This document shows, one piece after another, positions 6,384 through 63,957 of a stretch of 64,000 nucleotides of DNA. The notes beneath the pieces were generated by a model. It searched no databases and was not told the origin of the DNA. It saw nothing but the letters and a program-made list of their open reading frames with translations. Made by a program: the position numbers and the translations under genes. Positions within the stretch are counted from its first letter, which is position 1, and each line of letters starts with the position of its first letter. The DNA comes from Streptomyces sp. NBC_01788 (GTDB lineage Bacteria; Actinomycetota; Actinomycetes; Streptomycetales; Streptomycetaceae): assembly GCF_035917575.1 (NCBI RefSeq), contig NZ_CP109090.1, positions 5,890,001-5,954,000 on the forward strand, in the 5' to 3' direction.

Positions 6384-6431
6384 GAGCACACCCGGTCGCC
6401 GCCGTGCGCGGCGACCGCCACACACGCGCGT

Positions 6432-6470
6432 GGGGCCCTGGTGACCGAAGCGTCACCAGGGCCCTGTGTT
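6432..6470 (+). terminator. Intrinsic terminator of the M16 operon
   Basis: A perfect 13-bp stem (GGGCCCTGGTGAC with its complement at 6452-6464) encloses a 6-nt loop and is followed by TGTTGT. It lies 49 bases after the second M16 stop and just before the riboswitch leader of the M23 gene. Confidence 0.85.
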
Positions 6471-6589
6471 GTCCGAGTGTGGTCCGAATTGAGAGGGAGA
6501 GTGCCTGTCTGCCCTGTGGTATGCGCTACAAAACTTCTGATCCGTTTGGGAATTGAAAGCGGCCCCGCTTAGCGTCGGTCCGGCTGTTC

Positions 6590-6775
6590 GTCGGGCAGTG
6601 CGCCGCGTCCGCGGCACCGGACAGTCATCGCCGAGTCCCCGTACGGCGCGAGCCAGGGGAGCCGGGGACCCACCGTCCCTGGGGTGAATCGGACACCCGC
6701 GCGCGATGCGAGGGGGCCGTAGGAGACCTTCCTGCTCCGAACCCGTCAGCTAACCCGGTAGGCGACAGGGAAGGA
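6590..6775 (+). ncRNA. c-di-AMP (ydaO/yuaA-type) riboswitch upstream of the M23 peptidase
   Basis: The leader of the M23 gene contains the conserved blocks of the ydaO-type riboswitch in order: CGCCGAGTCC (about 6629), CAGGGGAGCCGGGGACCCACC (from about 6654), GGGGTGAATCGG (about 6681), then GCTCCGAACCCGTCAGC and AACCCGGTAGGCG (6734-6764) directly before GGAAGGAAAGG, 20 bases from the start codon. This RNA class binds cyclic di-AMP. In actinobacteria it controls secreted cell-wall hydrolases (RpfA-like, NlpC/P60, M23), usually turning expression down when c-di-AMP is high. Boundaries are approximate. Confidence 0.88.
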
Positions 6776-48079: not shown

Positions 48080-48189
48080 CCGGCTTCCGCTCGGCGCCGC
48101 ACCTGATGGTGAACGGCCGGACGGCACCCGCGTAGACTGGTGGGCTGTTGTCCGGCCGTACGCCTTTCCCGATCTGGAGTCACCCCACC

Positions 48190-49548
48190 ATGCACGCAGA
48201 ACAGAAGAACTCGCGGGTGGGCCAGGAGCAGGGCGCCTCGCTGGTGGGGCAGGAGTACGAGGTCGAGATCGGCCCCGTCGCCCACGGCGGCCACTGCATC
48301 GCCCGTACCGCCGAGGGCCAGGTGCTGTTCGTACGGCACGCGCTGCCCGGCGAGCGGGTCGTGGCCCGGGTGACCGAGGGCGAGGAGGGCGCCCGGTTCC
48401 TGCGCGCCGACGCGGTACGGATCATCGACGCCTCCAAGGACCGTGTCGAGGCCCCCTGCCCCTACGCGGGCCCCGGCCGCTGCGGCGGCTGCGACTGGCA
48501 GCACGCCAAGCCGGGTGCCCAGCGCCGGCTCAAGGGCGAAGTGCTTGCCGAGCAGCTCAAGCGCCTCGCGGGCCTCACGCCCGAGGAGGCCGGCTGGGAC
48601 GGCACGGTGATGCCCGCCGAGGGCGACAAGCTGCCCGCGGGCGAGGTCCCGCAGTGGCGCACCCGCGTGCAGTACGCGGTCGACCCCGCCACGGGGAAGG
48701 CCGGCCTGCGCCGCCACCGCTCGCACGAGGTCGAGCCGATCGACCACTGCATGATCGCGGCGGCCGGGGTGAGCGAGCTGGGCATCGAGCGGCGCGACTG
48801 GACCGGCATGGAGTCCGTGGAGGCGATCGCGGCGACGGGCTCGCAGGACCGCCAGGTGATCCTGACCCCGCGCCCGGGCGCCCGCCTGCCGCTGGTGGAA
48901 CTGGACAAGCCGGTCTCCGTCCTCCGCGTCGACGAGAAGACCGGCGGCGTCCACCGCGTCCACGGCCGCCCGTTCGTCCGCGAACGCGCCGACGGCCGCA
49001 CCCACCGCGTGGGCGGGGGCGGCTTCTGGCAGGTCCACCCGAAGGCGGCGGACACCCTGGTCACGGCGGTCATGCAGGGCCTCCTGCCCCGCAAGGGCGA
49101 CATGGCGCTCGACCTCTACTGCGGCGTCGGCCTCTTCGCCGGCGCCCTGGCCGACCGCGTCGGCGACAAGGGCGCGGTCCTCGGCATCGAGTCCGGCAAG
49201 CGCGCGGTGGAGGACGCCCGGCACAACCTCGCCGACTTCCCCCGCGTCCGCGTCGAACAGGGCAAGGTCGAGTCCGTCCTCCCGCGCACCGGCATCACCG
49301 AGGTCGACCTGATCGTCCTCGACCCGCCCCGAGCGGGCGCCGGCCGCACCACGGTCGCCCAGCTCGCGTCCCTCGCCGCCCGCCGCATCGCCTACGTCGC
49401 CTGCGACCCGGCCGCCCTGGCCCGCGACCTGGCGTACTTCCGCGAGGGCGGCTACCGGGTACGGACGCTGAGGGCGTTCGACCTGTTCCCGATGACGCAT
49501 CATGTGGAGTGCGTGGTGATTCTGGAGCCTGCGGACAAGGGCGCCTGA
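48190..49548 (+). CDS. Class I SAM-dependent RNA m5U methyltransferase with TRAM domain
   Basis: This 452-residue TrmA/RlmD-like enzyme methylates uridine C5 in rRNA or tRNA. A TRAM domain (about 20-80; EVEIGPVAHGGHCIAR) is followed by an iron-sulfur motif (C90, C98, C101 in APCPYAGPGRCGGCDW). The SAM site is DLYCGVGLFAGA, then LDPPRAGAG, the nucleophile C405 in VACDPAAL, and the terminal HHVECV. The ATG at 48190 follows TGGAG. The last 60 bases recur, diverged, at 50445 and 59846, suggesting this 3' end serves as an integration site. Confidence 0.92.
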   Translation: MHAEQKNSRVGQEQGASLVGQEYEVEIGPVAHGGHCIARTAEGQVLFVRHALPGERVVARVTEGEEGARFLRADAVRIIDASKDRVEAPCPYAGPGRCGGCDWQHAKPGAQRRLKGEVLAEQLKRLAGLTPEEAGWDGTVMPAEGDKLPAGEVPQWRTRVQYAVDPATGKAGLRRHRSHEVEPIDHCMIAAAGVSELGIERRDWTGMESVEAIAATGSQDRQVILTPRPGARLPLVELDKPVSVLRVDEKTGGVHRVHGRPFVRERADGRTHRVGGGGFWQVHPKAADTLVTAVMQGLLPRKGDMALDLYCGVGLFAGALADRVGDKGAVLGIESGKRAVEDARHNLADFPRVRVEQGKVESVLPRTGITEVDLIVLDPPRAGAGRTTVAQLASLAARRIAYVACDPAALARDLAYFREGGYRVRTLRAFDLFPMTHHVECVVILEPADKGA

Positions 49549-49555
49549 CCTGCGT
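49489..49555 (+). repeat. Direct repeat copy A: 3' end of the methyltransferase gene
   Basis: Covers the codons for MTHHVECVVILEP through the stop and TGACCTGCG. The stretch CCGATGACGCATCATGTGGA... (28 bases, 49489-49516) is identical in copy C; copy B shares the part from TCATGTGGAGTGCGTGG. Probable attachment site of inserted elements. Confidence 0.75.
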
Positions 49556-49838
49556 TTTTGCTCCTCTGGTGGGTTTCGACCTGTTTCCCTCCGTGTAGCG
49601 GTTCGAGCGGACGGATCGCTCTTTGATAGCTCTCTGACCTGCGAATTCGTGAACGAGGCGCTTGCAACGGCGACGCCCTCCAGTGGCTCCTGCGGGATTC
49701 TTGACGCTCGGATGACGCTCGAAAAGGAAGTCTTCGGGCCTCCGCGGTAGCGATGCGCATGGCCGCCTGGTCCCACGCTCCGCGGAGCCGAGCGCGGCCC
49801 GACCGCACCACTTGATACCGACCTGGTATCATCTCTGT
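49556..49838. other. Intergenic region with toxin-antitoxin operator
   Basis: 283 bases between the methyltransferase and the antitoxin gene. A perfect palindrome TGATACC-GACCT-GGTATCA at 49813-49831 ends 7 bases before the antitoxin ATG and overlaps its promoter: a typical autoregulatory operator. Near 49699, TCTTGACGCTCGGATGACGC resembles a sequence at about 59979 downstream of copy C. Confidence 0.7.
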
Positions 49839-50033
49839 ATGGCGATGACACTTCGACTTCCCGACGACCTTGACGCGAAGCTCACTGAGCGGGCTCGTCG
49901 GGAGGGCCGCAGCAAGCAGGAACTTGCCATTGAGGCCATCCGTGACGCCCAGGACCGGGCCGAGCTGAAGGTCGATGACGTCCTGGCCGAGCTCATGGAG
50001 AGCGATGCGGAGATCCTGGACTACCTGAAGTGA
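49839..50033 (+). CDS. Ribbon-helix-helix antitoxin
   Basis: This 64-residue protein has a CopG/RHH N-terminus (MTLRLPDDLDAKLTERARREGRSKQELAIEAI, 3-34) that binds DNA as a dimer. An acidic C-terminus (DVLAELMESDAEILDYLK) would wrap the toxin. The ATG at 49839 is preferred to an in-frame upstream ATG that lies within the operator palindrome. Its stop overlaps the toxin GTG (GTGA). It probably neutralises Doc and represses the operon at the palindrome. Confidence 0.9.
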   Translation: MAMTLRLPDDLDAKLTERARREGRSKQELAIEAIRDAQDRAELKVDDVLAELMESDAEILDYLK

Positions 50034-50422
50034 CCGACGTGCGCTACATCCAGCTCGACGAAATCCTGGCCATCGCCCGAACGGTCAACGGTACGGAGCA
50101 CAGCGTGCGTGACATGGGCCTTCTGGTGTCGGCGATCGAGCGACCCCGGACGAACGTGTTCGGAGCCGAGCTGTATCCCACGCTGCACGAGAAGGCTGCG
50201 GCGCTGCTGCACTCGGTCGCCCGCAACCATGCGCTGATCGACGGCAACAAGCGCACCGCCTGGCTCGCCATGCGTGTCTTCCTGCGGTTCAACGGCGTCA
50301 GCGCGAGTACGGTCCCGCCGCCCGTTTCCGTGGCCGGCCCGTTCGTCGAGGCAGTCGCGCAGGACAGCGTCGATGTACCGGCGATCGCCAAGCGCCTCGC
50401 GACCTGGTTCCCCGTTTCCTGA
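50030..50422 (+). CDS. doc: Doc-type (death-on-curing, Fic-fold) toxin
   Basis: This 130-residue protein has the Doc motif HALIDGNKRTAW (H67, D71, N73, K74, R75). It fits the Doc variant of the Fic signature, in which the ANKR-like loop phosphorylates EF-Tu and stops translation. N-terminal TDVRYIQLDEILAIA and LHEKAAALLHSVARNH are also typical. GTG start inside the antitoxin stop codon, so expression is coupled. The module lies between methyltransferase-end repeats A and B and may stabilise the inserted DNA. Confidence 0.93.
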   Translation: MTDVRYIQLDEILAIARTVNGTEHSVRDMGLLVSAIERPRTNVFGAELYPTLHEKAAALLHSVARNHALIDGNKRTAWLAMRVFLRFNGVSASTVPPPVSVAGPFVEAVAQDSVDVPAIAKRLATWFPVS

Positions 50423-51032
50423 CGTTCGACGAGGCGAGGGCGCCTCATGTGGAGTGCGTGGCGATTCTGGAGCTTAATGCAAAGGGGATCTGACCTGCGG
50501 TTTTCGTGGGTTACTCGGGCGTAGCCGGGCGTGCTCGACACCTGCGCTTCCAACCCGTTGCACGGATCGCGGCAATGGGCGGCCACACCAGGAAGGTGAC
50601 CGGCGGTCCGGTACCGACGGGGGTGGTGAGGTGCAGCGGTACGAGCAGCCCATGCACCGGGCTCTGCCTGTTGCGCATCGTGGACCTTGCCGTGGGTGAC
50701 TACGACTGCCAGTGGGCGGCCGTTACCGTCCACGGGGGTGGATTTTTCTCGTCAGGCCGATACGAGATTGGCCTATGGCGTGTCTGGCTCGCCCCTGGTG
50801 GAAGGAGCTTTACTGCTGCGGCAGGTGGCGCCGCTGATGTACCTCTCCGGCCGGGCCGGTGTTCGTGGCGTCAGCGCTCCGGTTCTACGGAATTCGTGAA
50901 CGCGGCAGGCGGATTCGATCGTCGTGGGCCATCGCAAAGTGATGAAAGTGCCACAGGAAACCCAAGGATGGGCATACTCTGCGGGAATCACCGCAGGTGG
51001 GCTGGGGCGACCTGTAATGCGGCGGAGGTGTC
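50423..51032. other. Gene-free region between doc and the 764-aa gene
   Basis: 610 bases. Repeat copy B lies at its left end. The rest has mixed GC and no credible coding frame. It should contain the promoter of the downstream two-gene unit, whose first gene has GGAGG 5 nt before its ATG. A short GGAATTCGTGAACG segment at about 50888 also occurs near 49642. Confidence 0.5.
50445..50500 (+). repeat. Direct repeat copy B of the methyltransferase 3' end
   Basis: TCATGTGGAGTGCGTGG then GATTCTGGAGC, a diverged stretch, and CTGACCTGCGG: it matches the end of the methyltransferase gene including the base after the stop. It begins 22 bases after the Doc stop, so it is a remnant rather than a gene. 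Confidence 0.72.
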
Positions 51033-53327
51033 ATGGGTGGGGACCCGTATGTGTCAGCAAAAGGGGTCGGAGAACGCGAGCCGACGGGGGTGCCGGATCC
51101 GTACGGGGACCAAGCTCTCCTGACGTCTGCCATGACGGGGGGCTACGACGCCGTCCCCGGCCAGGAGCGCAGTCGACTGCGGAGCTATCTCGAAGCCGTT
51201 GTCGCGGCCCGTCCGGCGCCGGTGCACACCACGGTCGCCTTCAACGCCGTGTACTTCGGGTACGAGCTCGGCGGCGACGGCTACGGCGGAAGCCCGCTGT
51301 GCCTCGATGACTTTCCCGTCGTCACCTTCGGTGCGTGCGCTCCCGTGCTCCCGGTCGGGGCCATGGTGTGTGTCGCCACCGGGTCGGACCCGCTTTACGC
51401 CGAAATCGTCTACAGGGAGGGCGCGCACCCGGAGGTGGACGCGCTCGGTGACGTACCGGCATGGGTGTCGGGGGCGCCCGCGGGCGCCGAGGGCTCGGGT
51501 AGGCCGGGTGCAGACGCCGAACCACGGCGCAGGGAACTGCTGGTGCCGGACCTCCACGCCTTCGGTCCGGCACTGAGTCTGTCACCGGCCCAGCTTCATC
51601 GCTTACGCACGCGCGGACGATGGATCAATGAGGACGGGCATGTCGTCGTCGACGTGTGCTATTCGTCCTCGCAAGCAGCCCGGCGCGGCGATCTGACGGC
51701 CTACGCGGATCATCTCCTGACGACGGCTCGGGAACAGCTTCTCAGCCCCTTCGTCCCTGTTTCCCTTGCCTCCCTGGTGGGCGGCACGCACGACGACGAT
51801 CTGCGGGCGGGACTACTCGGTCTCCTCGACACAGTGCGGGGTGTCCTCAACTCCAGTGCAGTGTTGCGCACATGGGGCCACTACGCCATGACCCGTACCT
51901 CCCTCGCGGACTGCTGGCGGGACACCGGACCGTTGGGCGGCGACGACCTCAGGTCTCTCGTGGCCGCGGTCGAGCACGCGGCCACCCCGGCGAGGCGGCG
52001 ACACGGCCTCGCCGCTCCGGTCACTGTGTACACAGCGGTCGGACCGCGACTCCGCAGTTTTCCCGGGGCGGAGGAACGGCTCAGGGAAGTGGGGTACGTC
52101 GCTGCGGTGTGCCGGGCGAACGTGGCGCTCGCCGACGTGGTCCAAGGGGACAGCGACCAGGGCCTGTTCGGCAACGGCTCCCGGGTCACCCTCGACGACG
52201 CCTTCGAGGGGGGAGGAGTGTGGCGATCCCATTCTCCCGGTGACGCAGAGGCACCCGGAGACCCCCTGGACCCGGCCGGGCGCGGCTGGAACTCCACACT
52301 GCCCGCAGCGCCGGAGCCGGAAACGGAAGTGGAGCTGGAACCGGTAGATGCGCCCCTCGCCGACGACGACGCCCTCGGATCCGGTGAACTCCTGCGAAGC
52401 GACGCGGAGGAGATCGTCTGGAGAGCGCCCCTGCGGCTGGCCCATCTCATCGGCGGCTGGTTTCCCCTGCACCCGTTCGTCGCGCAGGACCTTTGCCGGC
52501 CCCGCGGCGCGCACCCCACGCTTCGCCTCGAACTCGACCATGCTGGTGAGACGTTGGACGAGAAGGAAGCGGTGCAGTACGTCGCGGCCGAACTCGGATA
52601 CGGCTCGGGACGGTTGACGGGAATCGTCTGGCCCGGGGACTTCTTCCCCGGCCTGATGCTGGAGCTGCGTCGGCTCCGTGGCGACACGGTGATTCGACTG
52701 GCCACGATGCGGTTGAAGGGCCGAGTGCAGGCCGGTGACCGTGAGACTGGGCACTGTTACGACCCTCGCGTGCTCACCAGGGAGGACGTACCGGGCAGCA
52801 GCCGCCACGGTGACAGCGCGGTCGGGCTGGGCCCCCGGCAACTGGTGATGCGCACCGTGCGCCGTTGCGGTCTGCTCACCCTGGACGGTCATGCCCTGAT
52901 GGACCGGTCGGTCCTGCCGAGCGCGGTCTATGGGCGCCGACCGGCCCGGTCGCAGGCCGCCGCCTTGGACTCGGCCATCGCGGAACTGCTCGCGGAACGT
53001 CTTTTGGAGCCGGCCCTGGGCAGCCGGGACGCCTGGGGGCAGCCACACTTCCCGCCGCGTGACGGACAGCGGACGATTTCCCTCATCGGCTACCGCCCCG
53101 CCAGGCCGCGGGTGATACGTCCGTGGGGCGGTGGCGAACCGGGCGGTGAGAGACTGCACGGCGCTCAGCTCGTCGCAGGTCATCTGCGCCGCCTGCGGCC
53201 GGGGTGTCTGCCCAGCGACGTTCAGCGCGCGGCCTTCCGGGAGCACTGCCGCAGGCTCGGCAAGGCGGACGGCTGGGAACTTCCGTACGGCTACACGTTC
53301 GTGACCGAGCACGCGCGCGGCCGCTGA
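51033..53327 (+). CDS. Unrecognised 764-aa protein, first gene of an accessory pair
   Basis: I do not recognise this protein. There is no signal peptide or membrane helix. The N-terminal third has a beta-rich segment (APVHTTVAFNAVYFGYELGG). The centre has a Gly/Pro/Glu acidic linker (about 395-450). The C-terminal part contains a possible winged-helix segment (MRTVRRCGLLTLDGHALMDRSVL ... AIAELLAERLLEPALG, about 610-670) and ends YGYTFVTEHARGR. Codon 191 (51603-51605) is TTA, so translation should need the bldA tRNA, coupling it to development. The giant NTPase gene follows after 96 bases on the same strand, so they probably act together. GC and codon use are slightly below those of the core genes. 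Confidence 0.8.
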   Translation: MGGDPYVSAKGVGEREPTGVPDPYGDQALLTSAMTGGYDAVPGQERSRLRSYLEAVVAARPAPVHTTVAFNAVYFGYELGGDGYGGSPLCLDDFPVVTFGACAPVLPVGAMVCVATGSDPLYAEIVYREGAHPEVDALGDVPAWVSGAPAGAEGSGRPGADAEPRRRELLVPDLHAFGPALSLSPAQLHRLRTRGRWINEDGHVVVDVCYSSSQAARRGDLTAYADHLLTTAREQLLSPFVPVSLASLVGGTHDDDLRAGLLGLLDTVRGVLNSSAVLRTWGHYAMTRTSLADCWRDTGPLGGDDLRSLVAAVEHAATPARRRHGLAAPVTVYTAVGPRLRSFPGAEERLREVGYVAAVCRANVALADVVQGDSDQGLFGNGSRVTLDDAFEGGGVWRSHSPGDAEAPGDPLDPAGRGWNSTLPAAPEPETEVELEPVDAPLADDDALGSGELLRSDAEEIVWRAPLRLAHLIGGWFPLHPFVAQDLCRPRGAHPTLRLELDHAGETLDEKEAVQYVAAELGYGSGRLTGIVWPGDFFPGLMLELRRLRGDTVIRLATMRLKGRVQAGDRETGHCYDPRVLTREDVPGSSRHGDSAVGLGPRQLVMRTVRRCGLLTLDGHALMDRSVLPSAVYGRRPARSQAAALDSAIAELLAERLLEPALGSRDAWGQPHFPPRDGQRTISLIGYRPARPRVIRPWGGGEPGGERLHGAQLVAGHLRRLRPGCLPSDVQRAAFREHCRRLGKADGWELPYGYTFVTEHARGR

Positions 53328-53423
53328 CCTTTCAAGGCTTTCGCGCATCCAGGGCTCCGCCTCTCTCTTCCTCCCGCTACCCACAGACACCTCCCGTCAC
53401 CGACAGAAACGGAGCGCGTGTAC

Positions 53424-56400
53424 ATGCAGGACTGCTACCGCGTCGTCACAGGGCCGCCGTGGTCCCCGCCGAGCGTCTCAGCCGAGGACCTCGAAGGCCT
53501 GGCCGCCGCGCTCAACGCCTTGCAATCCCTGGCCGTCGCCGCCCTGAACGACCTCACGGCGGACATGGTGGAACTCGCTTTCAACTCATTGCGGCCCAAG
53601 CACCGCCAGGAGTTGCTCACCAGTCTGGGCATCCGCATGTCGGCCCCTCGACGGGTGAGCAGTGCCCTGTGCCGGGACGTCCTCACCAGGCTGCGGCGCG
53701 AGTCGCGGCAGCACACCTGCACATGTGGGATCAAGGGACTCACGGTCACCGTGATGAACCAGGTCGGCGACTTCGTCCTGGCGCACGACGGGGAGCCGGT
53801 CCCCGACCCTGTTGCCCGGTGGGGCGCAACGCTGGTCCGGGTCACCGTGTTCGCGTGGTGCAACGCCTCCGTCACCGACGCCCACATCCTTGCCTGGGCG
53901 GCGGACCAGGACTGGTTCGGGGCGACGACCGACGACGAGGAGGCGGCCCGGCTCACCGCCGTCGCTGCCGCGGCGCGGCCCCTCGTGGAGGCATACCCTG
54001 ATTTCGTTCTAGGAGCCGCGGAAGACGACGGGCTGGCGTTCGCGGAGGACAGCGAACCAGGGGCCGTTGCCGTCGCCGACCGTCCGGGCACCAGCGTCCC
54101 TGCACCGCAGACCGCGGCAGCGGACACCGGTACTTCGCACGAGGAGACCGCTACAGCGTCCGACAACACCGGAACCAAGGCTGGGACAGCTCCCGAGGAG
54201 GCATGTCAGCAGCTGGAGTCCGCACTGGCAGGGGCCCGCCAGGCCGCGGAGAAGGTCACCGATACGGTCATGGACGGCCGCCCTCCGCAGGACGAGGACC
54301 TGGCTAGGCTCGCTGCGCTGAGCACTGTTTTCAACGACGTGGACGCGGTGTTCCGGGCTGCCGGGATCGAGGGGGTGCCTCGTCGCCTAGAGGACATGAC
54401 GCGCGCTGCGCACGCACACCGGACAGCGCGGGAGCGTGACCTCCAGGCCCGCGAGCCGCTGCGGGAACTGCTGGATGTCGCCTGCCGCCCGGACAGCTCC
54501 GCCGCTGCCGCCGCTGCCGCCGAGGCCGTGCGCGGCGCGGCTCGCCGCCTGCTGGACATGCCGGTGTGGGAGGAGCTGCACCACGAGGAGAGCGCCGCGC
54601 TCGCCGCCTTGGCCCGGCTCATCAGGCTGGGACGACAGGCGGATGCCGCCACGGAGATCCTGGCACTGCAGGGACAGGTCGTACGGGTCCTGCCCACGTG
54701 CGCCGTGGCCGTGCTCATCGCTTCCGAGCTGACGCTGGACCAGCCGGTGGACGGTGCCGTGTGCCCCGCCGGGACCGACGTGGCACACGGCACCGCCGAA
54801 CCCGCCGATGCCGAGACGACCGCAGAACACGAAACCGTGCAGTCGGCCGCATCGACCGAGACGATCGCGCCCCAGCCCGCCGCCGAGCCGGAAGCCACCA
54901 CGACCGCCGTGCCGGTCCACGCCCCCAAGGCAGACGCCAGGCTGGCCGCCGACAGCGACTCGGCGCCCTCCACGTCCGCTGACGCGCCCGTCCAGGCACC
55001 CGCCGCACCCACGCTTTCCCCCGTCGAGGACACGCCCGTCCGGGAAGCGGCCCCGGCGGCGGGCGACGTCACCGATGAGGCCGCTATCGAGGGGGTCCTG
55101 GCGCGGTTGGTCGTGGAGCGGCGCTTCGGACTCGCCCACCATGTGGCAAGGGCTGCCGGCCACCCCGAGCCCCAGGTGGCGGCGATCCGCCTGGCCGGTG
55201 CCGCCGCGCTGCTCACGTCCGGGGACAGCCAGAGTGCCCGGCTGACGGCGGACCTGCTCCAGAGGTACGGCGGATATGCGGGCCAGGACACCGAGGGCAG
55301 CGAACTCCTCCTGCTGCCCGCCCTGCTGCGTACCGCGCTGATCACCGGTGACCACGCTGCGGGCGCTCAGCTCAAGGCGCTGGTGCCGAGGCTCCCGGAC
55401 CGGCTGGGGGATGCGGCGGCCGCCGTCGCCGACCGTGCCCTCAGCGGCGCCCTGCTGATCGCCTCGCCGCTGGTCGCCGACGTCTCCGAGACCGAGGCCC
55501 GGCTGCGGGAACTGCGTGATCAGAGCCGTGCCCTGCTCTCGCCGCAGCGGCTGCGGTTCGCACGGGCGACGGAGATCGCCAAACGCTGGCTCGCACCCGA
55601 CGACGGGATGCTCGGATCGCTGCTCACGACCGTCGTCGGTGACGACCGCGACGCGCTGCAGCAGGTGCGGGAGCAGGTCGATCGGCTGTCGAAACTGGCC
55701 GAGGTCAACAGCGAGATCGACCGCATGGACCGCAAGTACCGCTCGTCCAGCGGCAAGCCGCTTCAGGGCTCCGGGCGGCAGGACCTGGTGCATCTCGTGG
55801 AGCGGGCCGTCAGCCTGGTTAAGGAGTGGTGCCTGGCGGTCGACGGCACCCGTCGCGGCGACCGTTCCGACGGCAGCCGGGCGGTCAAGGAGATCTCCTC
55901 CCTGCGCCAGTCGCTGCTGGACGGCAGGGAAGCGGCGCTGGGCGAACTGGAGCGGTTGGCGCGGCGCCCGGACGCCCTCTCGGGCGCGATGGCCTGGGCG
56001 GCCCACGCCTCGATGGAGGAGCTGTTCGCTCTGCTGGCCGGCGACACCGTGACCACGCGTTCCGGCGGTCCCGTCGACCCAGCGCTCGTTCTGGACGCGG
56101 AGCTGCTGAAGGTGTGTGACACCCGTGACGAGCGGCCGTCGCCCGACGAACTGCTGACCGCGGTCCACCGGAGCTGGCAGGAGGCTCTGGACGAGCGGCT
56201 CTCCCACGACGCGTTCACCGCGGCTCGTGACATCGTCAAGCTGGCCGGACGCGGGCTGCTGCCTGCCGCTGGGGCGAGGGAGTTCGTCCCGCCTGCGGAA
56301 GCCGAGATCGACGACAGGGAGACCGCCCGGCGTGCGCAGCTGCGGAAGGCACACGACGCACTCGTCGCCGAGCTGCACCGTGCGCAGGCCGACGGTGCCG

Positions 56401-59400
56401 TGACCGAGGACCAGGACCTGGGCCTTCAGGAGTTGCTCGCCGACGCCCACAACAGCCTCGAAAGCGGTGACCGACACGACCTGCTGCACGTGCGGCGGGC
56501 GCTCGACACGGTACGGAGTGGCCTGCCGGCCTTCCGGGAGCAGGCGGCGGATCGAATCCGGGCTCGACTCGACGCCCTGGACCCCTCCGTGGAGGAGCGG
56601 GCCCAGGTCCTGCGGCGCCTGGAGACGAACGACCTGGCCACCGCTGCCGACCTCGTTTACTTCCTGGAGATCGGCGAGCCGGTCCCGGAGATCGAGGGTG
56701 GCGAGTCCCATCTGACCGAGTTCTTCCCGGCCGTGCCCGACGGCCTGCCCGGAGGAATCGACCATGAGCTCGTCGAGCTGGTCCGGTCCGGCGGTAAGCA
56801 TCCAATGGTCCCCGTCCTGGACTACGGTGGCCTCTCCACCGACGAGGCGGCGCTGGCGGCCGACGCCCTCGACGAGTGGCGCGTGCTTGCCGCCACCGAA
56901 CGCAAGGACCGGCTCCAGGTGGCTCCGACGCGACAGGTGCCTCCTCTCCTCAAGCTCTTCGGCTACGACGCCAAGAGCGCCAGGCCGCTCGACGACCGAT
57001 CCCAGCACAGGCGGGAATACCGTCTCTTCGAAGCGACCGGCGTGGAGATCAACGGTAGAGCGAAGGCGCCCGCGTTCGGCTCGCAGATCAAGGAGCAGGG
57101 CGGCAACCTGAGGGTGATGATGGTCTGGGGCAGGCCGCCCGCCAAGGTCGTCATGAGCTGGGCGGAGCGCGACACTAGCGGAGCGAGCCTTCTCGTCGTC
57201 TACTTCGGTACGCTGAGCCGTGAGGCCCGAGTCGAACTCGCCGCCGGCTCCGACCGGTTGCAGCCGCTGCTCGTGGTGGACGATGCCGCCCTCGCCTATC
57301 TCGCGGCCTGCGGCAACCGCCAGGTCAGCGCCGCCACGCAGACCCTGCTGCCCTTCTCCGGCGTCAACCCGTACATCAGGGAGAAGCGCGGCCGGATCGG
57401 CGGCGAGATGTTCTACGGCCGCGACGCCGAACGCAAGAGCATCCTCGACCCGCGCGGCACCCAGGTCATCTACGGTGGCCGGGGCCTGGGCAAGTCGGCG
57501 CTGCTCGCAGACGCCGGGGAACTGTTCACGGAGCAGCGCACCGGCTATCACCAGACGGTGTACGTCAACCTCGACCAGGAGAACATCGGCAAGGGCAGCT
57601 CGCGCGGGCCGGAGGCGCTGTGGAGCGTCCTCCTGAGAGAGCTGACCGTGGCACAGGTACTCGATGACCGGCCGCAAGGGCGCGGAAAGCGACAGGAGAC
57701 CTCCGAGCGGGTGCGTGCCGGCATCCGGGCCTGGCTGGACGGGGACTCCCGTCGCCGACTGCTGATCCTGCTCGACGAGTGCGACCAGTTCTTCGAGGCC
57801 GACGCCCCGAGGTTCGACCAGACAAAGAAGCTCAAGGGCCTCGGGTCCGACACCAAGGACGCGGCAAAGGTCGTCTTCGCAGGACTTCACTCTGTGCAGC
57901 GCTTCTCTAAGCTCGCGAGCAACGGGCCGTTCGGTCACCTCGCTCAGACCCCGAAGGTGATCGGCCCGCTGGCTCCCCAGTCGGCTGCGGAACTGCTGGT
58001 CGAGCCGATGCGGGCGCTCGGGTTCGAGTTCAAGGACCTGGATCTCGTCAACCGTGTGCTCGGCTACTGCTCGTACCAGCCGTTCCTGCTGCAGATGTTC
58101 GGGCACCGGCTCGTCGAGCTGATGCACCGCAAGCGGACGCGGCGCGGCGCCGGGGAACCTCCTTACGAGGTGGAGGTGACCGACATCGAAATCGTGGAGT
58201 CGGACGCCGCGCTCCGGGACGGCATCTCGGCGGCCTTCAAGGACACGCTGAGCCTCGACCACCGCTATGACGTGATCGCCAATGTGCTGGCGTACCACGC
58301 CCGCCATCACGGCCTGGAGGTGCGGCTGAGCGACACCGAGTTGCGCGAGGAGTGCGAGACGTACTGGCGCATGGGGTTCGAACAGCTCGACACCGAGGGG
58401 TTCCGCGCCTACCTCTCCGAGATGGTGGGTCTCGGTGTCCTCGCGCCCAACCACGACGGATTGGGCTGGCATCTGCGCGGTCCCAACGCCCTGCGCATGA
58501 TCGGGACCTCCCACGAGGTGGAGGCACGTCTGCTTAGGGCCGAACAGGACTGTGAATTGCAGGAGAGCATCGTCCAGGAGGGCCGCCCCGAGCTTCCCGA
58601 CGGGCGGCCGGCTCCGCTGACCAACACCCAGCTCGACGACCTCCTGGGCGAGCGGTCCAACCGGACCCGAGTCGTCCTCGGCAGCACCGCCACCGGAGTC
58701 ACCGACGTCGCCCGGACGTTGCGTACGATCGCCGGACCGATCGACGGCTGGACGCTGCCGCCCGTGGGCAAGCCCAGCGTCTACAAACAGGAACTCACCG
58801 GCGGACGCCCCCGAGAACGACGGGTCGTCATCAGCGACTTCGTCAACTACCGGGAGCCAGTCCGACCCGAGACCTGCCGCGAAGCCGTCGACCTGGCCGA
58901 GACGCTGCTGCCCGCGACTCCGGGGGTCACCCGCGCGGTCGTCATCGTCACCGACCCCGCTCAGCTCACCCTGTGGCGCTCCCTGCTGACGGGAACCGAG
59001 TCCACCTCGGCCGCACTGGTGGTGCTGCGCAGGCACGACCATCGCAGCCTGCGCGGCTGGGCCCAGCGCATCAACATGTTCCACACGGAGGACCGCCTGG
59101 ACCGTCTCCACGAACTGACCGGCGGCTGGCCGCTCCTGGTGGACCGGTCCTACCGCCTGCACGAGGAATTGGGCAACCCCGACGATGTCTTGCGTCGTCT
59201 GGCCGACCTCCGCGCGGACCGGGCCCAGGCCCGCGCATTCGCCGAGGCGACCGGCGTGTACGCGGATCCGCTGCTGGCCGCCGGATACCGGGCACTCACC
59301 GAAGAGTTCGAGGACGGCCTCTTCGACCTGGAAGGCGCGGTGACCGCCGTCGCGCTCAAGATCGATGACGAGGACGAGGCACGGTGGATCGTCGACTTCC

Positions 59401-59486
59401 TCGACGCCCTCCAGGTCTTCGATCGCGAGGACACCCAGCTGCGCCTGGAACCGGTGCTCCGGGAGTGCGTGGCGCTCAACGGGTGA
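53424..59486 (+). CDS. Giant (about 2,020 aa) STAND/AAA-like P-loop NTPase, accessory
   Basis: This protein has a helical N-terminal region, two low-complexity Ala/Pro/Thr/Glu linkers (about 215-260 and 450-545), and a long helical, partly coiled-coil middle (about 560-1130). An NTPase domain follows at about 1310-1650: MFYGRDAE, Walker A GGRGLGKSAL (about 1351-1360), Walker B RRLLILLDECDQF (about 1444-1456), and KVVFAGLHSVQRF (sensor-like). Winged-helix-like repeats come next, then a degenerate second P-loop-like part near VVLGSTATGVTDVARTL. The layout recalls STAND defence ATPases, with the effector unidentified. The ATG at 53424 is 9 nt after GGAG; the GTG at 53418 is an alternative. The shadow on the opposite strand (1,709 aa) reflects GC-rich codon bias. 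Confidence 0.82.
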   Translation: MQDCYRVVTGPPWSPPSVSAEDLEGLAAALNALQSLAVAALNDLTADMVELAFNSLRPKHRQELLTSLGIRMSAPRRVSSALCRDVLTRLRRESRQHTCTCGIKGLTVTVMNQVGDFVLAHDGEPVPDPVARWGATLVRVTVFAWCNASVTDAHILAWAADQDWFGATTDDEEAARLTAVAAAARPLVEAYPDFVLGAAEDDGLAFAEDSEPGAVAVADRPGTSVPAPQTAAADTGTSHEETATASDNTGTKAGTAPEEACQQLESALAGARQAAEKVTDTVMDGRPPQDEDLARLAALSTVFNDVDAVFRAAGIEGVPRRLEDMTRAAHAHRTARERDLQAREPLRELLDVACRPDSSAAAAAAAEAVRGAARRLLDMPVWEELHHEESAALAALARLIRLGRQADAATEILALQGQVVRVLPTCAVAVLIASELTLDQPVDGAVCPAGTDVAHGTAEPADAETTAEHETVQSAASTETIAPQPAAEPEATTTAVPVHAPKADARLAADSDSAPSTSADAPVQAPAAPTLSPVEDTPVREAAPAAGDVTDEAAIEGVLARLVVERRFGLAHHVARAAGHPEPQVAAIRLAGAAALLTSGDSQSARLTADLLQRYGGYAGQDTEGSELLLLPALLRTALITGDHAAGAQLKALVPRLPDRLGDAAAAVADRALSGALLIASPLVADVSETEARLRELRDQSRALLSPQRLRFARATEIAKRWLAPDDGMLGSLLTTVVGDDRDALQQVREQVDRLSKLAEVNSEIDRMDRKYRSSSGKPLQGSGRQDLVHLVERAVSLVKEWCLAVDGTRRGDRSDGSRAVKEISSLRQSLLDGREAALGELERLARRPDALSGAMAWAAHASMEELFALLAGDTVTTRSGGPVDPALVLDAELLKVCDTRDERPSPDELLTAVHRSWQEALDERLSHDAFTAARDIVKLAGRGLLPAAGAREFVPPAEAEIDDRETARRAQLRKAHDALVAELHRAQADGAVTEDQDLGLQELLADAHNSLESGDRHDLLHVRRALDTVRSGLPAFREQAADRIRARLDALDPSVEERAQVLRRLETNDLATAADLVYFLEIGEPVPEIEGGESHLTEFFPAVPDGLPGGIDHELVELVRSGGKHPMVPVLDYGGLSTDEAALAADALDEWRVLAATERKDRLQVAPTRQVPPLLKLFGYDAKSARPLDDRSQHRREYRLFEATGVEINGRAKAPAFGSQIKEQGGNLRVMMVWGRPPAKVVMSWAERDTSGASLLVVYFGTLSREARVELAAGSDRLQPLLVVDDAALAYLAACGNRQVSAATQTLLPFSGVNPYIREKRGRIGGEMFYGRDAERKSILDPRGTQVIYGGRGLGKSALLADAGELFTEQRTGYHQTVYVNLDQENIGKGSSRGPEALWSVLLRELTVAQVLDDRPQGRGKRQETSERVRAGIRAWLDGDSRRRLLILLDECDQFFEADAPRFDQTKKLKGLGSDTKDAAKVVFAGLHSVQRFSKLASNGPFGHLAQTPKVIGPLAPQSAAELLVEPMRALGFEFKDLDLVNRVLGYCSYQPFLLQMFGHRLVELMHRKRTRRGAGEPPYEVEVTDIEIVESDAALRDGISAAFKDTLSLDHRYDVIANVLAYHARHHGLEVRLSDTELREECETYWRMGFEQLDTEGFRAYLSEMVGLGVLAPNHDGLGWHLRGPNALRMIGTSHEVEARLLRAEQDCELQESIVQEGRPELPDGRPAPLTNTQLDDLLGERSNRTRVVLGSTATGVTDVARTLRTIAGPIDGWTLPPVGKPSVYKQELTGGRPRERRVVISDFVNYREPVRPETCREAVDLAETLLPATPGVTRAVVIVTDPAQLTLWRSLLTGTESTSAALVVLRRHDHRSLRGWAQRINMFHTEDRLDRLHELTGGWPLLVDRSYRLHEELGNPDDVLRRLADLRADRAQARAFAEATGVYADPLLAAGYRALTEEFEDGLFDLEGAVTAVALKIDDEDEARWIVDFLDALQVFDREDTQLRLEPVLRECVALNG

Positions 59487-59845
59487 CAGAGCCGCATGTG
59501 AATCGGGACCGGACATGGCCGTGGTGATCGCGGGCGTGCCGGTCGCGGTTCCGCAGTGGGCGGAGGACCTATTGCGCCGATGAGAGTGGGGCGTGTCCGG
59601 GCGAGACCAGGAATCCTGGTAGACCGCGCGACCTCCTCCGTGCTGCTCAGGGGTGAACAGACTGCGGCAACCGGATCATCCCGAGGGATCCGCCTCGCTC
59701 GCCCGCGAGACCGGGTGGCCGCACCGGCCCGGCACTGTCCGCCGTGACGCTCGTTTGACGCTTTGGGCCCCTTCAAGCTGCACATCAAGCCGAGAATGCG
59801 CCTCTGACCTGGCCCTTTCTGTGGCCGGCTCAGGCCGACATCTTT

Positions 59846-59912
59846 CCGATGACGCATCATGTGGAGTGCGTGGCGATTCTGGAGCCTGCGGGAAAGGGCC
59901 GCTGACCTGCGG
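59846..59912 (+). repeat. Direct repeat copy C of the methyltransferase 3' end
   Basis: Bases 59846-59873 are identical to 49489-49516. The rest is close, reads in frame as PMTHHVECVAILEPAGKGR and stops, then TGACCTGCGG. It lies 360 bases after the giant NTPase gene and is the right-hand boundary candidate of the insert. Confidence 0.78.
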
Positions 59913-59994
59913 TTCAGCGGTGACGCCGACGGGTCTTGACCCGGTGGGGCGGCCGCGTGATGCTCGGTCGTCGGGACTCTTGACGCTCATATGA

Positions 59995-60033
59995 CGCACT
60001 GCCCCAGTCGGCCAGACCGACTGGGGCAGTGCG
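59995..60033. terminator. Strong hairpin terminator
   Basis: CGCACTGCCCCAGTCGG pairs perfectly with CCGACTGGGGCAGTGCG (17 bp) around a 5-nt loop, followed by TTGCG. It is the natural terminator near the right end of the insert. Confidence 0.85.
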
Positions 60034-60193: not shown

Positions 60194-61696
60194 GTGGATG
60201 AGAGGGTGCTTGCCAAGCCCGAGGACGTGGTCGACCGGGATCGTGAGTGGGATCTGCTTACCGAACTCGTCACGGACCCGGATCCGGCGATGCGTCTGGG
60301 GGTCGTGTCGGGGCGCAGGCGGCACGGGAAGTCGTATCTCCTGCAGGCGCTGTCGGAGCGCGTCGGGGGTCTGTATGTCACCGCGGTGCGGGAGGAAGGG
60401 CGGTTGCCGGCGCTCCAGCGGTTCAGCGACGCCATCGCGGCCTACGCGGGTCTGCGGCCCGGCACGCTGCGGTTGACCGACTGGCGTGATGTCCTGTCCA
60501 ACGCCCTTGATGTCACCGCGCGCTCACAGACACCGCTGTTGGTGATCGACGAGTTGCCGTATCTCCTCCAGCACTCTCCCGAGATTCCTGGCCTGCTCCA
60601 GCAGCTCTATGACGAGCGTCAGCGGGGCACCGGGGCCGGACCAGGAGCCCGGGTGATCCTGTGTGGGTCCGCGATGAGCGTCATGCACGAGCTGCTGTCG
60701 GGGACGAAGCCGTTGCGTGGCCGTGCGGTGATCGATCCGAGGTTGGGGGCCTTCGACTACCGGGCCAGCCGTGCGTTCTGGCAGATCGACGACCTGCTGA
60801 CTGCCCTGCAGGTGCACGCTGTCCTCGGTGGTGCTCCCGGTTACCGGCCGGTGGCGGCCCGCCCGCACCCGAACGACGGTTTCGCCTCCTGGCTGACGCG
60901 GACGCTTTTGGACCCGGGGCGGGCGGTGTACTCGCGTACGGAGACGGAATATCTGCTGCGTGAGGATCCTCGGATCACCCAGCACACCCTCTACTACGAC
61001 ATCCTCACCGCGATCGCCCAAGGCGCTTCCACCCCCACTAAGATCGGCGCGGCCCTGGAACGGCAGCGCAACGCAGTCACCCACCCGCTCGACGTCCTGG
61101 AGTCCACGGGCTACATCCAGCGTGAGCAGGACATCCTGCGTCCCCGCCACCCCGTCATCACCCTGGCCGACCCTGTCATCCGCTTCAATCAGCTGATCAC
61201 CCTGCCGCAGGCGGCCACCATCGAACAGGGCTTCGCCGAAGAGGCGTGGCAGGCCGCCGCGCCGACCTTCAACTCGAAGATCCTCGGCCCTCACTTCGAG
61301 GACCTGGCTCGCGCCTTCACTCGCCGATACGCCCACGCCTTGCTTCCCGGCGGCCTGCCCGGCCCGGTCGGCACCACCGAGGTGGCGGACCCCGCAGCCC
61401 GCACCAAGCACGAGGTCGACGTCATCGCCCTGGCCCTGGGCGAGCGCCCGCAAGCTCCTCGCGCCCGGATCGCCCTCCTCGGCGAGGCCAAGGCCACCGT
61501 CGCCCGCCGCGGCACCGGCGATCTGCAACGTCTGGAACACATTCGCGCCCTGCTCACCAATCAGGGCCACGACACCACGGGCACCACCCTGGCGCTGTTC
61601 TCGCTGCACGGGTTCTACCCGGACCTGATCGAGTCCGCAGCCGGCCGCGACGATCTGCTCCTGGTCGACCTGGCGACTCTCTACGGGGTCGGGTAG
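60194..61696 (+). CDS. DUF234-type ATPase (ATP-binding protein with C-terminal nuclease-like domain)
   Basis: This 500-residue protein has an N-terminal ATPase_2 domain with Walker A GRRRHGKSYLL (40-50) and Walker B TPLLVIDELPYLL (about 113-125). ILCGSAMSVM and an RGRAVIDPRLGAFDYR segment follow, then a winged helix (PTKIGAALERQRNAVTHPLDVLESTGYIQRE, about 278-310). The DUF234 C-terminus has a PD-(D/E)xK-like pattern (HEVDVIAL ... LLGEAK). Such proteins are common in archaea and actinobacteria, often orphan, with a suspected DNA-related or defence role. GTG start after GGGAG, with a palindromic operator upstream. GC is lower at the 5' end. Confidence 0.85.
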   Translation: MDERVLAKPEDVVDRDREWDLLTELVTDPDPAMRLGVVSGRRRHGKSYLLQALSERVGGLYVTAVREEGRLPALQRFSDAIAAYAGLRPGTLRLTDWRDVLSNALDVTARSQTPLLVIDELPYLLQHSPEIPGLLQQLYDERQRGTGAGPGARVILCGSAMSVMHELLSGTKPLRGRAVIDPRLGAFDYRASRAFWQIDDLLTALQVHAVLGGAPGYRPVAARPHPNDGFASWLTRTLLDPGRAVYSRTETEYLLREDPRITQHTLYYDILTAIAQGASTPTKIGAALERQRNAVTHPLDVLESTGYIQREQDILRPRHPVITLADPVIRFNQLITLPQAATIEQGFAEEAWQAAAPTFNSKILGPHFEDLARAFTRRYAHALLPGGLPGPVGTTEVADPAARTKHEVDVIALALGERPQAPRARIALLGEAKATVARRGTGDLQRLEHIRALLTNQGHDTTGTTLALFSLHGFYPDLIESAAGRDDLLLVDLATLYGVG

Positions 61697-61984: not shown

Positions 61985-62425
61985 TCACTCTGAGCTGGTC
62001 AGATGAAGGGTGAGGACGGCCTGGACGAGGCTGGTGATCCGGGTGGTCGAGCACCGCAGTTTACGAAGGAGCCGCCAGGATTTGAGGGTGACGACGGCCT
62101 GCTCGACCAGAGCTCGGATCTTTGCGTGGGACCGGTTCACCGCCTTCTGGCCTGCGGAGAGGGCTTCCCACCGTCCCCAGTACGGGATGCGGACCGTGCC
62201 GCCGGCACCCCGGTAACCCTTGTCTCCCCAGCACTTGATGCCGGCCTGGGCGAGGGCGTCGACGATGCCGTGTTCGCGGGCCGCGCGGACGTCGTGCACG
62301 GCGCCGGGCATGGCCCGTGAGGCCCACAGCAGCCGGCCGAAAGGGTCCGCGATGACCTGCACGTTCATCCCGTGCTTCTTGTGTTTGCCCGAGTAGAACG
62401 GCCGGTCCGCGGCAATGCGGGCATT
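61985..62425 (-). pseudogene. IS5-like (DDE_Tnp_4) transposase fragment
   Basis: From the ATG at 62368 the frame encodes 127 residues (NVQVIADPFGRLLWAS, PGAVHDVRAAREHGI, WGDKGYRGAGGTVRIPY, ALVEQAVVTLKSWRLLRKLR). This is the C-terminal half of a DDE transposase with the second Asp (DKGY) and final Glu region. Homology continues upstream in frame (AADRPFYSGKHKKHG), but the N-terminal half with the first Asp is missing. It is a broken element, unlikely to be active on its own. Confidence 0.82.
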
Positions 62426-62593: not shown

Positions 62594-63028
62594 ATGGCAG
62601 CCAGAATCGATCTGACCCTTGATTGCGCAGACGCGAAGCTCCTCGCCGAGTTTTGGAAGACGGCCCTGGGGTACATGGACGAGCCGCCGCCCGCTCCCTT
62701 CAGAACCCGCGAGGAGTGGCTCGCGCAGTTCGACCTTCCGGAGGACGACTCCGCGGACGACGGCGCGTGGCTTTGCGATCCTGACGGCGACGGCCCCCGG
62801 CTCAGCATCCTCAAGGTCCCCGAGCCGAAGACCGCGAAGAACCGACTCCATATCGACGTCCGGGTGCCGGGACACGGCAGCCCCGATGAGAAGTGGGCGC
62901 GGATCAGGGCGGAGTCCGAGCGGCTGGTCAAGGCGGGCGGGGTCGTCCTGGAGGAGTTTGAGGGGCATCACATGGTGATGGCCGACCCGGAGGGCAATGA
63001 GTTCTGCGTTGCCGCGGCCTCCGCTTGA
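62594..63028 (+). CDS. VOC-family protein (single domain)
   Basis: This 144-residue protein has a glyoxalase-like fold: ARIDLTLDCADAKLLAEFWKTALGY at the N-terminus, RLHIDVRVPG in the middle, and MVMADPEGNEFCV at the end, in the order typical of Streptomyces VOC proteins. It lacks an obvious full set of metal ligands, so it may bind rather than convert its ligand. The ATG at 62594 starts MAARIDLTL. It is an intact gene between two broken insertion sequences. Confidence 0.87.
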   Translation: MAARIDLTLDCADAKLLAEFWKTALGYMDEPPPAPFRTREEWLAQFDLPEDDSADDGAWLCDPDGDGPRLSILKVPEPKTAKNRLHIDVRVPGHGSPDEKWARIRAESERLVKAGGVVLEEFEGHHMVMADPEGNEFCVAAASA

Positions 63029-63957
63029 CGTTGACCGGGTGCGGGATCACCCCGCCGCCGACCGGCACGATCCGCTCGTCGCCCAGTAGCAGACTTGGCG
63101 GTCCACCGACGGCGGTGGGCGCCGGTCCTCGGGCAGAGCGGCCCGTCGTTGGGGCAGCGACAACGGTCTCCTCGGCCCAGGGCGGAGGATCGTCCTTCTC
63201 GTCCTCCGTGTTCGAACACATCCGCCGGGATGTGCGTCTTGATCCGTTGCTGTCGCAGCGGGCTCTGGCAAAGATCTTGGTCGACAACTTCCTCAGTGAG
63301 GTGCTGAATTCGTCTGGCCGGCAGCCGGAGCGTGTGGCGGGCCGCTGCTGCCGGAGCGATGACGTCGGTACTCTCCAGCTCAAGACACCGGCGGATGAGT
63401 TTGGGGTTGCTCAGCCCGGCGAGCGCCTCCCGCAAGAGCGGGTCTGCGGAGACCAGGACGGCCTTGAGCTGGTTGATCGCTTGCGAGCGTGACTTGGTCG
63501 CTGAGCTCCTGGCCATCTTGAACATCCGAATCACCTCCACCGGCCCGTCGCTGGTCTTGGCGGTGGCAGTGGCACGGCCGGATATCACGGCTTGAGCTGC
63601 GGCTGCCGCATCGATGGCGTCGGTCTTGCCGCGTCGGCGCCGTGTGGCTTTGTCGGGCTGGTTGACCTCGGTGACCGTGACGCCTTCGCTGTGCAGGTAG
63701 CGCGTCAGCGCCGCACCGTAGGAGCCGGTGCACTCGATGCCGGCTCGCCGCAGGCGGCCGAAGGACTGTGCCCAGGACAGCAGTTGCCGGTAGCCGTCGC
63801 CAGTCGTGGGAAAGCTCCGGGTGTCCAGCAGGGCTCCCATGGTGGTGATCACCGCGGCCACGTGGACATCCTTGTGGGTGTCCACTCCGAGTACGACGTC
63901 CTCGGACGCTGGAGCCGTCTGATGACGGGGACGGGTGGGGTGGGTCATGCTGGGCAC
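62968..63957 (-). pseudogene. IS110-family transposase, C-terminus lost
   Basis: The first 229 residues (63271-63957) match IS110 transposases. The DEDD N-domain begins VLGVDTHKDVHVAAV with its Asp, IECTGSYGAAL has the Glu, and GKTDAIDAAAAAQAV has the Asp pair. The helical linker FKMARSSATKSRSQAINQLKAVL follows. After LTEEVVDQDL the sequence turns into unrelated low-complexity residues, and the Transposase_20 domain with the catalytic Ser is missing. The transposase is therefore disabled. The 5' end lies 43 bases from the window edge. Confidence 0.82.

Follow-up and report, generated by a model that had tools for sequence, protein, structure and literature searches.

The stretch analysed here, called the window, comprises 64,000 nucleotides (positions 5890001-5954000) of the single 8.27-Mb contig of Streptomyces sp. 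NBC_01788 (G000), and downstream of a gene for a TRAM-domain RNA uracil-C5 methyltransferase of the RlmD/RumA type it holds a 10.4-kb stretch, A-C, bounded by copies of the 3′ end of that gene (Table 1). The methyltransferase scores 198.8 bits against TIGR00479 (rumA; cut-off 183.55) and falls under the cut-off of the other RlmD model, NF009639. Its gene end, copy A, recurs twice downstream in the same direction, as copy C (blastn 70/79 positions, 89%, E 5e-21) and as copy B (56/70, 80%, E 6e-11), and the remaining window matches of the gene end have E >= 0.02 among the matches listed. The gene at A is intact up to its end, and other sequence precedes B and C. A and C have 28 identical bases (CCGATGACGCATCATGTGGAGTGCGTGG), and B lacks the left half of the repeated core (CCGATGACG). 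An earlier sequence-only reading of the window had noticed these repeats and claimed that A-B encloses a ribbon-helix-helix (RHH)/Doc module, and B-C the genes of a 764- and a roughly 2,020-amino-acid (aa) protein, all of which is borne out by the alignments, the coordinates of the open reading frames and the Pfam matches RHH_1 and Fic. A search of the whole genome returned A, B and C alone; therefore, the copies do not form a dispersed repeat family.

Table 1. Features of the methyltransferase locus and of the units behind it (window positions)
Feature	Position	Strand	Basis
TRAM-domain RNA uracil-C5 methyltransferase, RlmD/RumA type (target gene)	48148..49548	+	Pfam TRAM, tRNA_U5-meth_tr
Copy A: core at the methyltransferase 3′ end, left junction	49479..49557	+	
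Second, decayed core of the long-type left end, TCGACCTGTTTCC ... TGACCTGCG	49576..49643	+	
Predicted P′ arm site pair, TGACGCTCGGATGACGC	49702..49718	+	
Ribbon-helix-helix antitoxin-like protein	49812..50033	+	Pfam RHH_1, E 4e-5
Doc/Fic toxin-like protein	50030..50422	+	Pfam Fic, E 2e-15; DOC_P1 above cut-off
Copy B: internal junction, half core, without arm sites	50435..50504	+	
764-aa cargo protein, no assigned function	51033..53327	+	
2022-aa cargo protein, C-terminal AAA ATPase-like part	53418..59486	+	AAA_22, E 1e-4, below cut-off, residues 1347-1494
Predicted P arm site pair, TGACGCTCGTTTGACGC	59745..59761	+	
Conserved TGACCTGG box of the right end	59805..59812	+	
Copy C: right-hand junction of A-C, which also serves the next unit as its left junction	59836..59914	+	
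Predicted P′ arm site pair, unit starting at C	59981..59997	+	
500-aa ATPase-like gene that opens the post-C unit	60194..61696	+	Pfam ATPase_2, E 2e-6, below cut-off

Pairs of direct repeats of the form TGACGC-N5-TGACGC occur 156 bp past the stop of A and on both sides of C, 157 bp ahead of its stop and 79 bp behind it, and B has none. In 88 stretches (~1.8 Mb) from this genome and other Streptomyces, mostly picked for such ends, all pairs adjoin a core copy save one with an uncalled core, an association that speaks for the rarity of the pair elsewhere and not for how frequent the ends are; in 73 further loci, 61 of 65 pairs adjoin a core copy. The spacing of right ends is nearly constant, 78 of 87 pairs lying 158-161 bp ahead of the stop, part of these ends having been preselected by a pattern permitting 29 spacings, and a TGACCTG box sits between arm and core. 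The labels arm site and core are taken from lambda by analogy, and on that analogy the ends of A-C are predicted to be the P arm-box-core and the core-P′ arm of the phage-type attachment site (attP) of a tyrosine recombinase. Core copies bound A-C on both sides, one of them at the end of the intact target gene; the arm-type repeats at 49702 and 59745, predicted sites, recur with like spacing across genomes; and no integrase of its own was found inside A-C. A-C is thus most probably an integrase-less integrative cassette that inserts at the methyltransferase gene end, and the arm-type pairs on both sides of C indicate that a further unit begins there.

Such ends are widespread in the genus. A strict arm-plus-core pattern found a right end in 100 of 392 Streptomyces genomes (115 sites in total), and its reversed control in none. 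The sequence-only reading had taken the gene end for an integration site, and its recurrent use is supported by further copies (E <= 1e-7) in at least 22 of 36 relatives of the same genus, on the contig of the gene and within ~55 kb of it in at least 15 of the 36, and by a dedicated integrase family beside such copies elsewhere. This cognate tyrosine integrase family (~360-385 codons, Pfam Phage_integrase) occurs at E <= 1e-100 in 46 of the 392 genomes, and not in G000 at that threshold. Right ends were found in 30 of the 46 integrase-positive versus 70 of the 346 integrase-negative genomes (odds ratio 7.4, p 1e-9). In a collection of named genomes, 61 integrase loci reach at least 71% identity, labelled as Streptomyces in 59 cases and as Actinobacteria bacterium and Microtetraspora glauca in one each, and the next relative, apart from three short Streptomyces fragments, has 35% identity. 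With at most 10 kb fetched per locus, 34 of the 61 show a right end downstream of the integrase, at a distance of 0.1-9 kb, and one shows it upstream. Six of seven integrases taken from beside core copies share 69-92% mutual identity, and, judged by eye at the loci that include the right end, the second arm repeat is TGACGCAC for the subgroup of 71-73% identity and TGACGCTC for the others.

In G033 an excisionase-like helix-turn-helix gene (Pfam HTH_17) lies just upstream of the integrase, and G104 has an open reading frame with a near-identical start. Two integrase-bearing elements have, ahead of the integrase, a partial second tyrosine-recombinase gene of 209-232 aa (L060:4087-4716 and L054:7864-8562), and an unrelated tyrosine integrase with ~25% identity to the family (L062 of G005, 5346-6605) lies 0.6 kb from an isolated core copy. 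In S. griseofuscus (L195, 14939-20350) another right end follows 5.4 kb past that of an integrase-bearing element. Integrase-bearing right ends away from the methyltransferase locus were seen in G015 (L059; >100 kb off), G031 (L060; 1 Mb off) and G021 (L061; on a different contig), and represent either other sites or rearranged arrays.

Intervals that run from one attachment (att) site to the next and end in a right-end arm pair numbered 45, including B-C of G000 and of G330 and one with a weak core in G299. Four of them, 15-49 kb long, hold a tyrosine integrase, cognate in every case; the other 41, 2-23 kb long and from 37 genomes, hold none according to our own tyrosine-integrase profile. 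No serine recombinase (Pfam PF07508) was found inside the integrase-less intervals in 39 genomes, all 37 included, and for 21 of the 37 no Pfam tyrosine recombinase in these intervals was among the matches listed. The sequence-only reading had held the integrase to be either lost or outside, and with 41 of 45 complete intervals lacking one the balance leans to outside. These counts derive from 87 arm-paired right ends, of which 13 have a cognate integrase in the interval or upstream, 41 close the integrase-less intervals and 33 have their left end out of view. Sixty further stretches were taken around strict-pattern right ends, mostly in list order, without the sites already sampled, the last entries of the list and several sites close to the end of a contig; G330 was picked for its A-C unit. 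These 60 stretches were at most 20 kb long, so that short units are favoured, intervals from related genomes are non-independent, and elements and genes were called by simple custom scripts, not by a gene finder.

The integrase-bearing and the integrase-less units differ at their left ends. In the former, the P′ arm lies 57-58 bp past the stop in 12 of 12 cases (four islands and eight named loci), whereas in the latter it lies at 155-181 bp in 26 intervals and at 57-66 bp in two, so that a long, two-core left end belongs to 26 of 28 scorable integrase-less intervals versus 0 of 12 integrase-bearing elements (Fisher p 2e-8, kinship ignored). Long-type ends carry a further, decayed copy of the gene end, in which TCGACCTGTTTC occupies about +29 to +44; this string is present within two mismatches in 26 of 27 long and 0 of 11 short ends. 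The left end at A in G000 is of the long type; its decayed copy starts 28 bp past the stop of A, an arrangement general among long-type left ends. The left arm pair is kept, with at most one mismatch, in 28 of the 41 integrase-less intervals, versus ~2% of random windows, and the right ends of both groups agree in arm spacing, box and core. As the left ends are of two kinds, recent loss of the integrase is an unlikely source of the integrase-less units, which may be a lineage of their own. Cassettes without a recombinase probably rely on that of larger elements sharing the site.

The separation of left-end types by integrase presence would also be expected if a second recombinase, residing elsewhere in the genome or on plasmids or phages, moved the long type, and the integrase family found here moved the short type only, and the lack of the cognate integrase in most right-end hosts fits with this as well. 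However, the right ends of the two groups are alike, and G104 carries an integrase-bearing element followed in tandem by an integrase-less long-type unit. Among the phage matches listed, the best relative has 35% identity and all 46 records lie below 60%, and six plasmid records are weak or partial. We therefore regard a second recombinase as quite improbable, and a shared integrase supplied by the larger elements remains our preferred reading.

The A-C unit itself recurs in two other species. In G014 and G330, the Doc module and the 764-aa and 2022-aa genes are 94.7-96.9% identical to those of G000, versus 86.5-87.2% for the methyltransferase gene and 85-88% for the preceding gene, and the similarity to G000 stops at the core of C, with differing DNA beyond. 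As A-C is more alike than the two genes ahead of it and has other neighbours after C, it has spread without an integrase, and the comparison indicates that it did so horizontally, as one unit and in its present form. The neighbours after C have relatives of their own: the start of the post-C unit of G000, with the ATPase gene, recurs in G303 (924 bp, 88%), where it follows an att site with another element ahead of it, and the post-C unit of G330 recurs in G387 (948 bp, 94%). The Doc module lies behind an att site in eight genomes, in three of which (G250, G301 and G363) that site is the right end of another element, and in five of the eight the DNA that follows it is other than in G000, G014 and G330.

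Copy B appears to record how A-C was assembled. G330 holds A, B, C and a fourth core, with extra DNA after B that includes a decayed arm pair (TGACGCTCATGGGACG, two mismatches) ~126 bp past the stop; in G014, B is lost and the decayed arm stretch is kept, and in G000, B is kept and the stretch is lost. What precedes B is the 3′ flank that the Doc gene naturally has, to judge by G306, G301 and G250, and this flank is fused to the second half of a core. These relics suggest that A-B, with RHH/Doc, and B-C, with the 764-aa and 2022-aa genes, were once two units fused by deletion, and that B would be the former left end of the 764/2022 unit. The Doc unit would have inserted ahead of the 764/2022 unit, a deletion would then have removed the right end of the Doc unit and half of B, killing the junction, and the fused A-C would have spread as a single unit. 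B as a live site between two live units was ruled out by its half core, its lack of arms and its deletion in G014. The two successive integrations proposed from the sequence alone are thus supported by the relics in G330, but not as two present units, for A-C is now a single unit, B is no longer a live junction and C marks the beginning of a third unit.

No far end can be recognised for this third unit, which leads into transposase genes, four of which, from several families, lie within ~10 kb after C (window 61985-62368 and 62968-63957; L034 2137-3318 and 5278-6114), and the transposases may have destroyed its right end. Further on in the same genome, DNA of L034 (~70600-73500 on the window scale) has 84-90% identity to methyltransferase-linked island DNA of G303 and G007, and the hotspot may reach 11-14 kb past C.

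Based on these observations, namely the sites and their spacing, the association of the integrase with them and its absence from the cassettes, the identity pattern of horizontal spread and the differing neighbours after C, we propose the following mechanism. The ends of A-C would be the two halves of a lambda-like attP, in the order arm pair, TGACCTG box and core at the right end, and core, second core, box and arm pair at the left end. A tyrosine integrase from larger elements at the same site would recombine the core with the methyltransferase 3′ end, leaving the methyltransferase gene intact after insertion, and this family, nearly confined to Streptomyces, would supply catalysis in trans. 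Cassettes would accumulate in tandem and swap at their cores, and excision and passage of the DNA from cell to cell would complete the cycle.

Some findings weigh against this proposal. The cognate integrase at E 1e-100 is lacking from 70 of the 100 right-end genomes, G000 among them, and many cassettes may be stranded, given such integrase-free hosts; 13 of the 41 integrase-less intervals have no left arm pair at up to one mismatch; and 34 of 41 integrase-less right ends retain the TGACCTG box, versus 13 of 13 integrase-bearing ones. The search for a syntenic empty site gave none, the DNA to the right of the gene being variable in the 21 stretches compared, and an attempt to place the crossover by identity steps failed, as a gene-end block of ~56 bp looks host-like at both junctions. 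Moreover, it is from sequence comparison that we infer trans catalysis, excision and transfer between cells, as well as the sequence of steps at B.

The integrase-free hosts and the missing left arm pairs, together with the clear decayed junction B and the transposases after the unit starting at C, are also what would be seen if the units were remnants of integrase-bearing islands, each stripped of its integrase by a deletion that followed insertion, and were fixed by now. We consider this decay unlikely, though not negligible, because the two groups have different kinds of left end, the short one in 12 of 12 integrase-bearing elements and the long, two-core one in 26 of 28 scorable integrase-less intervals, and because most integrase-less intervals keep the left arm pair far above the random level. 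Moreover, the integrase-less form of A-C is common to three species at 95-97% identity to G000, and in five of its eight genomes the Doc module is found with other DNA behind it than in those three. Borrowing of an integrase by units that lack one accounts better for these patterns.

The junctions bear on a further explanation. Where the same element was compared across hosts, the 56-bp block from GATGAC to the stop at the left junction looks host-like (79-91% in three pairs of the long type and 84% in one of the short type), and beyond it identity rises to 92-100%, a level that begins at the second core in long-type and at the stop in short-type ends; the sequence after the right boundary differs between hosts of the same element as well. 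Therefore, a single short crossover fails to explain both sides. A gene-end block that looks exchanged at both junctions would suit a spread of the repeats by homologous recombination or gene duplication, with no site-specific recombinase, but arm sites at fixed distances, an integrase beside them and similarity that ends sharply at or near the cores make this very improbable, and integrase-mediated insertion at the gene end is retained. The sequence-only reading had suggested a comparison with related Streptomyces, which did find differently occupied sites and integrase genes beside similar repeats, and no clean empty site with a syntenic right flank. Neither of the outcomes it had named as refuting it, the same repeats without a variable insert or repeats dispersed over the genome, arose: the inserts are variable in the relatives and the repeats are not genome-wide. 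A conserved right flank was sought in the 21 stretches and not found. A desaturase-like segment (by eye) was considered as the native flank, lying ~182 bp after the methyltransferase in G026 and after a right end in G016, G405 and, partly, G326, a pattern resembling empty versus occupied sites; it was rejected because it occurs in many unrelated places, at >=95% identity in 13 of 29 genomes searched (loci L165:18994-19990 of G405, and in G016, G026 and G027), and is perhaps a mobile unit of its own.

The integrase-less units carry few genes each, as judged from the open reading frames of 26 att-to-att stretches, and of their larger cargo proteins, 20 were scanned with Pfam and two had no match. 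The kinds found include type I restriction, NACHT-HEAT, caspase, VMAP-C with trypsin, CdiA-CT RNase A and WD40 proteins; GH11 xylanase, aldo-keto reductase, amidase with an MFS transporter, zinc dehydrogenase and molybdopterin oxidoreductase; and histidine kinase, PAS-SpoIIE, LuxR-type and LysR-type regulators. PADLOC matched two of ten cargo proteins, one of them as type I restriction, and the cassettes of the methyltransferase site are not purely a defence island. In A-C, the 764-aa protein has no match in Pfam, NCBIfam or PADLOC; its relatives occur in 36 of the 392 genomes, some of them away from the methyltransferase site, and a 41% paralogue lies in the same genome (G000:C1:2111499-2113817). 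An AlphaFold2 model of it was poor (predicted local distance difference test, pLDDT, 49.6) and was not used. The 2022-aa protein is, at a guess, STAND-like, and a defence role of the 764/2022 pair is likewise a guess, from the ATPase part.

These findings point to one chromosomal entry point through which cassettes have reached a quarter of the sampled Streptomyces species, with defence-like ATPases, restriction, toxin-antitoxin systems, enzymes and regulators among the cargo. Island finders commonly depend on an integrase, and the exact end sequences described here permit cassettes to be listed independently of it. Because left ends split by integrase presence, trans-mobilisation of tyrosine-integrase cassettes is directly testable in a streptomycete. 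As a broader view, put forward tentatively as a serious possibility just short of an even chance, the units may form a self-standing Streptomyces lineage of multi-gene cassettes that are non-autonomous and have a two-core attP of their own; they would be satellites of a tyrosine integrase almost specific to the genus, held in exchangeable integron-like arrays at one RNA-methyltransferase gene.

Among known systems, integrons gather many unrelated cassettes in a row at one site through an IntI integrase. The locus resembles them in having an array of unrelated cassettes at a single site, but it has no IntI and no integrase at the array, and its multi-gene cassettes are bounded by direct gene-end copies with arm sites; the cognate integrase scores 38.1 bits against the integron model TIGR02249 (cut-off 265) and is therefore not of the IntI type. 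The cis-mobilizable elements (CIMEs) of streptococci are att-bounded, lack integrase and transfer genes and have their site in common with an integrase-bearing element. A-C likewise has att ends, holds no integration or transfer genes and has its att site in common with integrase-bearing elements, the right ends being alike and the left ends differing in spacing. Unlike streptococcal CIMEs, right ends here occur in a quarter of the sampled genomes of a genus, mostly without the cognate integrase (70 of 100), and the cargo is small and varied.

Actinomycete integrative and conjugative elements (AICEs) of Streptomyces accrete, several standing in tandem at one site (PMC9513070; PMC3218068), and one AICE is inserted in rlmN, another 23S methyltransferase gene (PMC9513070). 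The tandem elements at one site are alike, but AICEs are defined by traB, rep and int, none of which was found in A-C, and an RlmD-type site is not named among the AICE sites in the available parts of these accounts (PMC9513070; PMC3218068). In our scan, no A-C gene had a Pfam match to the genes of AICEs or other integrative and conjugative elements (FtsK-type Tra or relaxase, Rep, Int). An AICE as the autonomous partner was rejected, since 20 proteins from three integrase-bearing elements, a part of their genes, gave no match to FtsK/Tra or Rep, and the sole match of this type was the integrase itself, complete or partial; a gene of G033 outside these 20 looks relaxase-like by eye.

As far as the portions of the literature consulted extend, the closest described case found is that of the ssrA islands of Dehalococcoides, which line up in tandem at a single gene, with copies of its 3′ end as their boundaries, and of which 15 of 31 lack an integration module, cis-mobilizable elements and accretion having been proposed (PMC3146451). 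Tandem units bounded by gene-end copies, many without an integration module, are common to both systems, whereas the ssrA islands, in the consulted portion of their description, use a serine recombinase and a transfer-messenger RNA (tmRNA) gene, and the units here a tyrosine integrase, a protein gene and paired arm sites; unlike in those islands, the left-end architecture here differs between integrase-bearing and integrase-less units (PMC3146451). In the literature surveyed, with subscription titles thinly covered, we recognised no account of an RlmD-type gene end as the site of this integrase family. In conclusion, ssrA islands, CIMEs and AICE accretion are the closest kinds already described, and, relative to the portions of those descriptions consulted, the locus here differs in its RlmD-type site and its two types of left end.

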